Virus record (IMG/VR): IMGVR_UViG_3300022744_000028
Location: 1-64,000 of that record
Strand: one strand, 5' to 3'
Source of the DNA: a virus
Length of the DNA: 64,000 bases
Within the stretch, counting starts at the first letter, position 1; each line of letters begins with the position of its first letter. Positions 3,238 through 37,466 of this stretch are shown here, piece after piece. Both the position numbers and the translations under genes were made by a program. The notes below the pieces were generated by a model. The model worked only from the letters and a program-made list of their open reading frames with translations, searched no databases and had not been told where the DNA came from.

Positions 3238-3936
3238 ATGACGCCGATGTATGTAATCTGCACTGGACCAAACTATACCCCAGAGCATGTAAGAAGATTT
3301 GAGCGACAGCTCAAAGATCACGTCAATATTGATTTCAAAATACACTGCTATACTTCATACGACAGGTCATCATATGATGCGTCGATCGAAGTAATACCTA
3401 TCGAAAATGATGATGGGAGACGTCAGTGGTATAAGATGGATGTGTTTAGGATGGCACCAAAAGGCGATGTCGTCTTTGTATCAGATATAGACTGGACGTT
3501 CGTTGGTGATGTAACTGATATATTCAATCAGGAAGTAAAATCAAACGAGTTGATAGCTCCATATCGCTGGTGGACTCGCTATAAAGGAAAAGGCTTTACC
3601 ATTAACGGTGGCCTCTATAAGTTCATCGGGGGCGATCATCAATATGTCCCTGATACGTTTTACGATCGTCCGCAATACTGGATGCAGCATTATATTCTCG
3701 ACCGACGATTGGCGCATCCCCCTGTTAACGGCGAGCAAAATTTCGTAGACGAAACGATTAGAAAGAATACTGGTATATTAAAGTACTTCGAGCCCCGAGA
3801 TGCAATAGGCAGAATGCCCAGCGATCACCAACATGCCGTTGAATATAATGAATTGTATTTACTGAACTATGGTCACGACTACTTTCATGTAGGTGAATTC
3901 AACGATCGCATTAGAATGATTCAGAGTGTTTTGTAA
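3238..3936 (+). CDS. Glycosyltransferase-like protein with DxD-type motif
   Basis: 232 residues. VVFVSDIDWTFVGDVTDIF (around residues 79-97) resembles the metal-binding strand of GT-A enzymes, with DIDW in the DxD position. INGGLYKFIGG lies where such enzymes bind the acceptor. It starts two bases after the sulfotransferase stop, which places it in the same transcript. Its end overlaps the convergent QueC-like gene by 16 bp. The sugar donor and acceptor are unknown. Similar in plan to the product of 1535-2209 but clearly divergent. Confidence 0.6.
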   Translation: MTPMYVICTGPNYTPEHVRRFERQLKDHVNIDFKIHCYTSYDRSSYDASIEVIPIENDDGRRQWYKMDVFRMAPKGDVVFVSDIDWTFVGDVTDIFNQEVKSNELIAPYRWWTRYKGKGFTINGGLYKFIGGDHQYVPDTFYDRPQYWMQHYILDRRLAHPPVNGEQNFVDETIRKNTGILKYFEPRDAIGRMPSDHQHAVEYNELYLLNYGHDYFHVGEFNDRIRMIQSVL

Positions 3937-32463: not shown

Positions 32464-33399
32464 TTACTCTTCAGCTAGTTTCTTGAAGAAGTCGAGCGAT
32501 GCGTCGTCATCTTCGTCGACTGCTGCTGGTGCAGGTCTTGCTGCGGCAGTCTTAAATGCTGGAGCTGGAGCTGCTGCTGGCTCATCGTCCCATGGAGCTG
32601 TGGACGTCTGTGCAGACTCAGCTGTAGTACGTGGTTGAGCTGCACCACCATCCAAACCAAGAGCACGGTTCATTCGTACCTTCAGTTCATCATATGACTT
32701 GAAGTTCTTTGGATCGATCAACTCAGCAAGTGAGTGCTCTTGTTTCCAAACAGCTTCGAGGTCATCGTCATTATCGAACAAAGGAGCAGCTCCTTCAAAT
32801 TCTGACTTATCAAAGTTGCGATATCCTTCGACTTTGCGGATCTTCAATTTGAAGTTTGCGCCTTCCCAAAGGTCAAATGGGTTGATCTTTTGCTCATCTT
32901 CGAACTCTGGGTTCATAGCGAGTTCGATCTTATCCCAAATCTTCTTGCCGTACTTGAACAAGAATACCTTACCTTCGTTTTCTGGATGAGCTGGATCCTT
33001 GACGACGTAGATGTTAGATGTGAAAGACAAGCGACGCTTGTAGTGCTTGCGGACGAGTTCTTTGTTAGCCTCAATGCCAGAGTTCCAGAGAACGCTGTTG
33101 TATTCACCCAATGGGTCTTTTTGGTTGAGGGTCGTCAGAGACTTCTCGATGTACCAACCACCTGGGCCTTGGAAGCCGTGATCGAAGATACGGACGTATG
33201 GAAGATCTTCACCAGCAGGTGCTGGCAAGAAACGGATAATAGCGTAGCCGTTGCCAGCCTTGTCTACTTCTGGTTTCCAGAATTTGTCGTCGTCTTGGGA
33301 GTTGCCTTGGGCGGGTGCGTTCAGTTTCTGAACTTCTGATACCAACTTGTCTGTAAGAGACTTGCGGTTTGTTTTGAGGGCGCTGAAATCGATTGCCAT
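32464..33399 (-). CDS. 32: Single-stranded DNA-binding protein gp32
   Basis: 311 residues (T4 gp32: 301). The N-terminal basic LKTNRKSLTDKL is the cooperativity region. FWKPEVDKAGNGYAIIRFLP and GGWYIEKSLTTLNQKDPLGE begin the OB-fold core. The canonical T4 zinc cysteines are absent; the corresponding stretch (residues about 85-125) has no cysteine, as in many relatives. The C-terminus is acidic (VDEDDDASLDFF), the protein-interaction tail. gp32 coats single-stranded DNA in replication and recombination. It ends next to the shared terminator and follows gp59 as in T4. Confidence 0.93.
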   Translation of the reverse strand: MAIDFSALKTNRKSLTDKLVSEVQKLNAPAQGNSQDDDKFWKPEVDKAGNGYAIIRFLPAPAGEDLPYVRIFDHGFQGPGGWYIEKSLTTLNQKDPLGEYNSVLWNSGIEANKELVRKHYKRRLSFTSNIYVVKDPAHPENEGKVFLFKYGKKIWDKIELAMNPEFEDEQKINPFDLWEGANFKLKIRKVEGYRNFDKSEFEGAAPLFDNDDDLEAVWKQEHSLAELIDPKNFKSYDELKVRMNRALGLDGGAAQPRTTAESAQTSTAPWDDEPAAAPAPAFKTAAARPAPAAVDEDDDASLDFFKKLAEE

Positions 33400-33498: not shown

Positions 33499-34080
33499 CT
33501 AGGTTTTAAACTTATTAACCACAATTATTCTCGTCTTTTGATTATCAAAAGGAACGAATGGCCGATACTTTTTTGTAAGCATCTTATACCTTGGCCACAC
33601 AACGGGGTCGATGATATTTCGAGACCAATACTTAAAGAATCCACATAGGTCGTTTAAAATGACCAAGGTCTCTAGTGATATTGACTTTTGTATCACCAAC
33701 TTCAGAAGGTAGGGGTGTTGTCCATCCTCCACCTTCAAGTTGTCATCGAAAGCAGGAAGCAAGTTATCGAGCTCGTTGGTAAAGTTATACGTCAAAGATT
33801 CCGTACGAGCCTTCCACTTTAGATAGTTGCTCTCTGCTTGTTGCTCGTTTGCAATGTCGCCGACCCAGATATCTGGGCCACCTTCGACAATGTTAGCGAG
33901 TATATAATTTTGGCAGTCCTTGTGTTTGGCAAGGACATTGAAGAAGTGCTTGTCATTTCGCTTCTCGAACGCTGCCAAGCTCGCTCGAGTCTTCCCACCA
34001 TACTTAAAAAAGTCGTATGTTTGTGAATTGAAATGATTCTTCATCGCAACGTACAATTTGTACGCTTCATAACCATTCAT
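33499..34080 (-). CDS. 59: DNA helicase loader gp59
   Basis: 193 residues (T4 gp59: 217). NGYEAYKLYVAMKNHFNSQT, YDFFKYGGKTRASLAAFEKR and NDKHFFNVLAKHKDCQNYIL match the gp59 N-terminal domain. The C-terminal half is helical (LVIQKSISLETLVILNDLCG). gp59 loads the gp41 helicase on gp32-coated DNA at recombination forks. Its position between gp33 and gp32 is the T4 gene order. Confidence 0.85.
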   Translation of the reverse strand: MNGYEAYKLYVAMKNHFNSQTYDFFKYGGKTRASLAAFEKRNDKHFFNVLAKHKDCQNYILANIVEGGPDIWVGDIANEQQAESNYLKWKARTESLTYNFTNELDNLLPAFDDNLKVEDGQHPYLLKLVIQKSISLETLVILNDLCGFFKYWSRNIIDPVVWPRYKMLTKKYRPFVPFDNQKTRIIVVNKFKT

Positions 34081-36589: not shown

Positions 36590-36982
36590 ATGCAATACTT
36601 CACATACTTATGGATTGATAAATCGCGAAAAATGTTTTATGTTGGTGTACATGAAGGACATATCAACGATAGCTACATTTCATCGAGCAGATGGTTCAAC
36701 GGCGAATATCAATATCGACCTAATGATTTTAAGCGTAGGGTTCTTAAACTCTTTAACGACAGAGCCTCAGCAACAAAGGAAGAGTCTCGATTGCTTGCTC
36801 TAATTAAAGAGGAAGAGTATGGCAGCAGGTACTACAATCTTAAAACCGGTCGACCTAAAGGCACACCAGCATCCAACAAGGGCAAGCCAATGTCCCCAGA
36901 ACAGCGCGAAAAGCTTAGCAAGGCTAAGCTAGGAAAGCCATCTGTGAGGAAAGGCATTCCTAATAAAAATAAAGCTAGTTGA
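36590..36982 (+). CDS. GIY-YIG-like homing endonuclease with NUMOD3 motif
   Basis: 130 residues, behind TTGGAGGATAAAA. The N-terminus reads FTYLWIDKSRKMFYVGVHEG, in the place of the GIY...YVG core, followed by SYISSSRWF. The C-terminal part has the NUMOD3-type DNA contact KGTPASNKGKPMSPEQREKL. The family cuts DNA at a specific site to spread its own gene. The gene is plus strand among minus-strand neighbours, and its last three codons (GCT AGT TGA) form part of the tmRNA terminator stem read from the other strand, so it abuts the tmRNA directly. Confidence 0.7.
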   Translation: MQYFTYLWIDKSRKMFYVGVHEGHINDSYISSSRWFNGEYQYRPNDFKRRVLKLFNDRASATKEESRLLALIKEEEYGSRYYNLKTGRPKGTPASNKGKPMSPEQREKLSKAKLGKPSVRKGIPNKNKAS

Positions 36983-37005
36983 TTCTGTTTCCAAGTTCAA
37001 CTAGC
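36974..37005 (-). terminator. Intrinsic terminator of the tmRNA transcript
   Basis: On the minus strand GCTAGTTGA pairs with TCAACTAGC (nine pairs, 14-base loop) and is followed by TTTATTTTTATT. It lies 18 bases after the tag stop codon. CTAGCA/TGCTAG (37038-37033 with 37006-37001) could form the P5 helix and would share a few bases with it. Confidence 0.75.
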
Positions 37006-37277
37006 AAAACTCATGCAGTGCAATTAAGCAGCTGCTAGGAATAACTCATCGTTTGCAGTTATTGATTTTGCTTGATTTACGGTCATCGCCTACCGTGTTG
37101 CCGTCTCTACTATCTACCCCTGTCGAAACCAAGTGCACCCCCATCAAAAACACACCAAGTTAGTATTCAGATACATTGAGCTATCTAACTACGTCCTAAT
37201 CCAATGTTCTTAGGTATGCTTTTGGTGGAAGTGGCGGGATTCGAACCCGCGTCCAGAAGTCCTTCGCTTTGAAGGGA
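37001..37277 (-). ncRNA. ssrA: Circularly permuted two-piece tmRNA (ssrA)
   Basis: Read on the minus strand, the acceptor piece comes first: TGGACGCGGGTTCGAATCCC then GCCACTTCCACCA, a T-arm (GCGGG/CCCGC) with encoded CCA at 37223. After an 80-base spacer the coding piece begins at 37142 with GGGGGTGCACTTGGTTTCGA then CAGGGG, the tmRNA 5' signature. The two ends form a seven-pair acceptor stem, GGGGGTG with CACTTCC, including the G3-U70 wobble that alanyl-tRNA synthetase requires. A tag frame follows. Possible PK1 stem: ACGGT/ACCGT (37094-37090 with 37081-37077 approximately). The order acceptor-spacer-coding is that of permuted tmRNAs of alphaproteobacteria, some betaproteobacteria and some cyanobacteria. 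The 5' limit of the acceptor piece is uncertain. tmRNA with SmpB rescues stalled ribosomes. Confidence 0.9.
37024..37056 (-). other. tmRNA tag-peptide reading frame
   Basis: Codons GCA AAC GAT GAG TTA TTC CTA then GCA GCT GCT TAA encode ANDELFLAAA and stop. With the alanine carried by the tmRNA the appended tag would be A-ANDELFLAAA. It keeps the ANDE start and AA end used by SspB/ClpX-type proteolysis. Resume codon GCA is preceded by CAATAACT. Confidence 0.9.
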
Positions 37278-37466
37278 TTACAACAATTCCTCGAGCTTCT
37301 CCAATCTAGGAATTTTCTTTTTTTCCTTTTTGCGGGAGTAGCCACAAGCTCCACATTTACCATAATCACCAACAACATCACGATCGCAACGGCCGCACCA
37401 CATGCTTTTGAGGCCGTCCTTGCGAGCAGCCATTCCGCTGCGTCTATTTGATTTTGTTAGGATCAT
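37278..37466 (-). CDS. Small zinc-ribbon protein, 62 residues
   Basis: Contains MWCGRCDRDVVGDYGKCGAC, a CxxC-x10-CxxC zinc ribbon at residues about 22-41, then a very basic lysine stretch (SRKKEKKKIPRLEKLEELL). An internal ATG at residue 12 is another possible start. It ends immediately before the tmRNA acceptor piece and starts nine bases after the upstream zinc-ribbon gene, so the three could share a transcript. RNA or DNA binding is plausible but not shown. Confidence 0.6.
   Translation of the reverse strand: MILTKSNRRSGMAARKDGLKSMWCGRCDRDVVGDYGKCGACGYSRKKEKKKIPRLEKLEELL

Follow-up and report, generated by a model that had tools for sequence, protein, structure and literature searches.

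A permuted two-piece tmRNA gene of betaproteobacterial type in a T4-superfamily phage

Results

The stretch of viral DNA analyzed in this study (64,000 nucleotides, here called the window) belongs to a 71,707-bp virus record, IMGVR_UViG_3300022744_000028. The record represents a T4-superfamily myovirus, as an earlier note made from the sequence alone had proposed. It encodes baseplate wedge and hub proteins, a tail tube cap, a gp32-type single-stranded DNA-binding protein, which is a marker of the T4 superfamily (positions 32464 to 33399, minus strand; PHROG 224), and a gp59-type DNA helicase loader (33499 to 34080, minus strand; PHROG 269). The gp32 homolog is about 60 to 63% identical to gp32 of Synechococcus and Sinorhizobium T4-like phages, and DNA comparison of a 24-kb stretch revealed no close cultured relative. 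No tRNA genes were detected in the window or in the remainder of the record, and a search with Rfam found no riboswitch in the window. Between positions 475 and 7284, a radical SAM protein and several small enzyme- or transferase-like open reading frames (ORFs) are located beside structural genes.

The minus strand from 37285 to 36974 carries a tmRNA gene that is circularly permuted, encodes two pieces, and belongs to the betaproteobacterial type. The Rfam model RF04321 (tmRNA_permuted) matched over its full length at 37285 to 37024 with 144.6 bits (E = 1.7e-28), and RF01850 (beta_tmRNA) matched with 139.6 bits (E = 1.4e-42), compared to a gathering cut-off of 84. The type is assigned by RF01850 as the best match within the tmRNA clan, the lower-scoring clan match being dropped. 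ARAGORN also reported a "permuted" tmRNA with the tag ANDELFLAAA. Thus, the covariance models, including the permuted form, fit the locus as the earlier note had anticipated and, together with the helix covariation described below, rule out a chance pattern.

Sequence inspection, ARAGORN, and Rfam agree on the order acceptor piece, spacer, coding piece, and all elements named in the earlier note (a T-arm with encoded CCA, an 80-base spacer, and a coding piece with ANDELFLAAA and a stop codon) were found on the minus strand. The acceptor piece (37223 to 37285) comprises the P2 5' strand UGUUG (37285 to 37281), the T-arm GCGGG-UUCGAAU-CCCGC (37250 to 37234), the acceptor 3' strand CACUUCC (37233 to 37227), the discriminator A (37226), and the encoded CCA (37225 to 37223). 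Its extent is supported by the start of the RF04321 match, by covarying helices between the pieces, and by similarity to the related viral contig L053. Because the P2 5' strand lies at 37285 to 37281, the gene begins at about 37285, some 8 nucleotides upstream of the start at 37277 proposed earlier, while the end at 36974 was retained. The spacer, which is presumably removed from the precursor, measures exactly 80 nucleotides (37143 to 37222). The coding piece (36974 to 37142), delimited by RF04321, RF01850, ARAGORN, and covariation, contains the acceptor 5' strand GGGGGUG (37142 to 37136) with GGUUUCGAC shortly after it, the P2 3' strands, P3, the tag frame, and a terminal hairpin. According to ARAGORN, the tag frame (37024 to 37056) starts at the resume codon GCA and reads GCA AAC GAU GAG UUA UUC CUA GCA GCU GCU UAA, i.e., ANDELFLAAA plus stop.

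The terminal hairpin, GCUAGUUGA/UCAACUAGC, was recognized by sequence reading and folding. It consists of 9 bp at 37005 to 36974 and is followed by a U-rich run, both together spanning 36962 to 37005 on the minus strand. This element is the probable 3' end of the RNA, and the hairpin may belong to the last pseudoknot or act as a terminator. A terminator scan made no call for the hairpin and U-run, and a sigma-70 promoter scan gave no more matches than expected, with none directly upstream of the gene.

Two further reading frames touch the gene. A homing endonuclease gene on the plus strand (36590 to 36982; PHROG 314, E = 1.7e-15) runs towards the tmRNA, and its last 9 bases, including the stop codon, are located inside the terminal hairpin. 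Homologs abut the tmRNA 3' end on the opposite strand also in L024, L045, L099, and L179, i.e., in five contigs including the window. On the minus strand, a cysteine-rich ORF of 62 amino acids (37278 to 37466) overlaps the start of the acceptor piece with its last 8 bases. A homolog was seen only in the near-identical contig L179, and this ORF may be lineage specific or no gene at all.

The two pieces can be joined by several helices. In the acceptor stem, all seven pairs form (G1-C72, G2-C71, G3-U70, G4-U69, G5-C68, U6-A67, and G7-C66), that is, five Watson-Crick pairs plus G3-U70 and G4-U69, in line with the seven-pair stem and G3-U70 wobble described earlier. In an alignment of 48 diverse viral homologs, the acceptor stem was paired in 100% of cells, with changes on both sides, and the outer and inner segments of P2 were paired in 93.3% and 98.3% of cells, respectively, with many two-sided changes. 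Covariation of the inter-piece helices amounted to 0.454 compared to 0.139 after shuffling (0/500) and was at most 0.094 with the partner strand slid. P2, the helix whose absence would have spoken against the earlier proposal, is therefore present, with covarying outer and inner segments. In the same alignment, P3 was supported at 83%, and one intermediate P2 segment was unsupported, with 35% paired. For PK1, the score of the crossing stem was not above shuffles in several sequences, and too few variants were available for covariation. From what is known of the family, a PK1 before the resume codon is likely.

The spacer and the two pieces differ in their conservation. The ends of the spacer add as many as 13 pairs to the acceptor stem, with 91.6% of cells paired and a covariation of 0.514 compared to 0.183 after shuffling (0/500), and the spacers of bacterial permuted copies fold likewise. 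Between the window and L053, identity is 91% in the acceptor piece, 92% in the coding part before the tag, and 100% in the tag but 54% in the spacer. Conserved pieces and tag with a drifting spacer are the profile of a working RNA whose spacer is discarded.

To place the gene among its relatives, we used pattern scans of IMG/VR and similarity searches. One pattern matched at least 120 viral stretches, for nearly all of which, among those listed, ARAGORN reported a permuted tmRNA. The acceptor stem was fully paired (7/7) in 128 of 129 viral copies, with positions 4 and 5 varying on both sides, and pair 3-70 was G-U, the alanine identity pair, likewise in 128 of 129; since the pattern preset TCCACCA on one side and GG and TG on the other, only the positions left free (in pair 3 the G, in pairs 4 and 5 both bases) are informative for the scanned contigs. 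A degenerate pattern for the ANDELFLAAA tag matched nine viral contigs, of which eight carry a permuted tmRNA ending in ANDELFLAAA. L179 harbors an identical tmRNA gene and shares 98.4% identity with the window across 5.6 kb, which makes a chimeric assembly unlikely. L053 and L182 are 82% identical to the window across the tmRNA. Two other contigs, L185 and L186, appear to hold mosaic genes whose tag half is nearly that of the window and whose acceptor half resembles L045, which suggests that recombination may have occurred within the gene between phage tmRNA genes.

The neighborhood of the gene is conserved as well. Homologs of gp32, gp59, and endolysin were found near the tmRNA in at least 28, 37, and 58 of 118 viral loci, respectively, nearly always on the same strand, and these counts are lower bounds because the viral stretches are short. 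This synteny in T4-like contigs shows that the tmRNA has been maintained for a long time. tmRNA genes serve as integration sites, and several phage matches span only about 43 bases, as expected for pieces of attachment sites. The gene might hence be a passenger, either a host fragment left by integration or a recent accidental capture that the phage does not use. However, it is complete and structurally constrained, it is conserved among T4-like contigs that show synteny, and the genes closest to it are viral. We consider an unused passenger barely credible and rejected an integration relic, since the gene is complete and constrained.

Furthermore, blastn with the window gene retrieved cultured phages of Alcaligenes, Pseudomonas, Xanthomonas, Stenotrophomonas, Acinetobacter, and Synechococcus. 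Their copies are permuted according to both ARAGORN and RF04321 and mostly have no tmRNA annotation. For the Synechococcus phage copy, too, the beta model is the best match within its clan. In Xanthomonas phage XacN1 (L002), a GOLLD RNA (RF02032, 227 bits) is located at 3342 to 3755, close to tRNA genes and at a distance of about 1 kb from the permuted tmRNA.

The window tag opens with AND and closes with small or hydrophobic residues, like host tags. Its resume codon is GCA (alanine), its LAAA end is atypical, and its frame is the same in the window, L053, and L185. Recognition by ClpXP is uncertain, because the tag ends in LAAA and not in the ALAA type of betaproteobacterial tags (ANDERFALAA). 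A tmRNA with this end might be charged and enter ribosomes but spare or redirect the products, serving ribosome release with little proteolysis or competition with host tmRNA for SmpB. Of the 129 viral copies, 10 have tags ending in AAA, and phage DS6A carries a tmRNA consisting of the tRNA-like domain only, a kind of molecule that inhibits host tmRNA (PMC4131195; PMC11915505). In contrast, the coding piece of the window gene is full, its tag frame recurs unchanged in L053 and L185, and 84 of the 129 viral tags end in LAA, so that we regard such a purpose as highly improbable.

Other tags deviate more strongly. Long tags of 23 to 31 residues, e.g., ANADTFDFSAMSFTGNTVSGKSKVALAA, are found in 31 of 129 viral copies, about a quarter (L016, L030, L037, L069, L083, L101, L105, L106, and others). 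Several of them finish as a normal-looking tag, as though codons had been added after the resume codon. In Herbaspirillum and Duganella, permuted tmRNAs (L136, L140, L145, L146, L147, and L160) have tags that end in GT, e.g., ANEPQFVAYGT, and not in LAA. Stenotrophomonas chelatiphaga (L139) has two tmRNA genes, a permuted one with the tag ANQVDYHQARIAA and a standard one at another site of its genome.

In the two bacterial orders sampled, the permuted gene is rare: random draws gave 3 of 100 and 2 of 61 genomes above the cut-off. One Stenotrophomonas genome tested has a standard tmRNA (191 bits) plus a permuted one, and a standard tmRNA is also present in both genomes checked from the Herbaspirillum and Duganella set with GT tags. 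The idea that the additional permuted genes in these three genera stem from prophages was not upheld: an integrase was found near the copy of Herbaspirillum alder98 (L140), but the tested neighbors of the other three bacterial loci included no phage-specific Pfam families. In a first tree, the window fell among 19 rows, all of them viral (99/100), and five bacterial copies formed one clade within the wider viral spread. In a second tree, with two bacterial genes added and the outgroups and three long rows removed, most of the branching was weakly supported, and the AU test did not reject the grouping of bacterial and island copies into a single clade (P = 0.63). The alignment data amounted to about 155 columns. 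Tentatively, the beta-type permuted tmRNA might be mainly a phage gene that passes between unrelated phages irrespective of which tmRNA form their hosts use, and those few betaproteobacteria with it as their only tmRNA might have taken it from phages or mobile islands, although we judge this somewhat unlikely.

Some phage tRNAs replace host tRNAs, and the gammaproteobacterial hosts of the cultured phages with a permuted gene are generally known to use a one-piece tmRNA. The phage tmRNA might likewise work mainly to replace the tmRNA of the host when this is cut or switched off during infection or by a defense system, with the two-piece form and other stem bases being selected. The occurrence of the permuted form in phages of one-piece hosts (with a standard gene demonstrated in one Stenotrophomonas genome) and its rarity in the host orders sampled are in favor of this possibility. 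On the other hand, we know of no defense system that cuts tmRNA. Moreover, host SsrA remains stable when T4 infects E. coli (PMC9697503). Replacement as the main role is thus quite unlikely in our view.

No SmpB was found in the 71.7-kb record or in 25 records with related genes (26 in total, many of which are fragments). A phage-encoded SmpB partner was therefore dropped, and host SmpB would be needed.

Discussion

Judged from its sequence, the phage has at this locus, probably (at about 80%), a complete gene for a permuted tmRNA in two pieces that works in the rescue of host ribosomes together with host enzymes. The gene would be transcribed as a single RNA of acceptor piece, spacer, and coding piece, in which the spacer, as covariation shows, forms a long hairpin continuing the acceptor stem. 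Host RNase P-type tRNA-processing enzymes and spacer nucleases would then cut the precursor into two RNAs, which would stay together through the pairing shown for the acceptor stem and P2. For permuted tmRNAs in general, a review calls cutting by RNase P and other nucleases probable (PMC3985003). Host AlaRS would place alanine on the G3-U70 acceptor, and host SmpB and EF-Tu would deliver the charged tmRNA to ribosomes stalled on broken messages, where ANDELFLAAA would be added and the product passed to a host protease. The likely benefit would be that rescue is kept up and that ribosomes and amino acids are recycled while messages break during infection. In line with this benefit, host SsrA is abundant as well as stable in T4-infected cells, and the authors of that study suggest that ribosomes are thereby kept available (PMC9697503). 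The earlier note proposed that the RNA may rescue host ribosomes during takeover or add a tag specific to the phage, and both ideas are plausible.

The gene shares gene order, inter-piece helices, G3-U70, the spacer hairpin, and the AND start of the tag with the betaproteobacterial permuted tmRNA (RF01850). It differs in the tag (ANDELFLAAA versus ANDERFALAA), and the window phage has no SmpB gene. Phage spacers are longer than bacterial ones (median, 80 versus 35.5 nucleotides). In addition, the CCA is encoded in phages, whereas many bacterial copies end in ACCT or ACCC; CCA was a requirement of the viral scan pattern, but it is also present in the cultured phages, for which similarity was the sole search criterion.

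A permuted tmRNA in a myovirus had been thought unusual in the earlier note, a view that does not hold. A two-piece tmRNA was published in 2022 for the T4-like myophage Melnitz by Buchholz et al., with 53 two-piece genes among 133 phage tmRNA structures, 50 of them from marine or aquatic phages (PMC9004378), and over 100 further viral copies were found here. A 2025 tmRNA database, the source of RF04321, holds 79 phage sequences (PMC11915505). The window gene is therefore not unprecedented but is a further case of the known phage-encoded two-piece tmRNA. Like the window, the methylophage Melnitz and the pelagimyophages carry the permuted form in a T4-like myovirus; their tmRNA, however, was reported to be alphaproteobacterial in type and tied to a glutamine riboswitch (PMC9004378), whereas the window copy is of the beta type, and the window has no Rfam riboswitch match. 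Alcaligenes phage QDWS595 and Stenotrophomonas phages Moby and Marzo have permuted genes that match the beta model, as in the window, and are unannotated or briefly annotated, but QDWS595 belongs to the Schitoviridae, and the stem bases and tags of these phages differ from those of the window. Bacillus phage G and mycobacteriophages also encode a complete tmRNA, yet in one piece and in standard gene order (PMC4131195), and that of phage G matches RF00023.

The locus provides a clean, strongly supported example of phage-encoded trans-translation. As most of the cultured copies examined are unannotated, phage tmRNA is probably under-counted. The wider survey weighs more than the single gene: viral contigs commonly have the beta-type permuted form, which is also present in cultured phages of one-piece hosts, yet rare in the bacterial orders sampled. 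This pattern leads one to ask about the origin of the two-piece form in bacteria and about the reason for its presence in phages.
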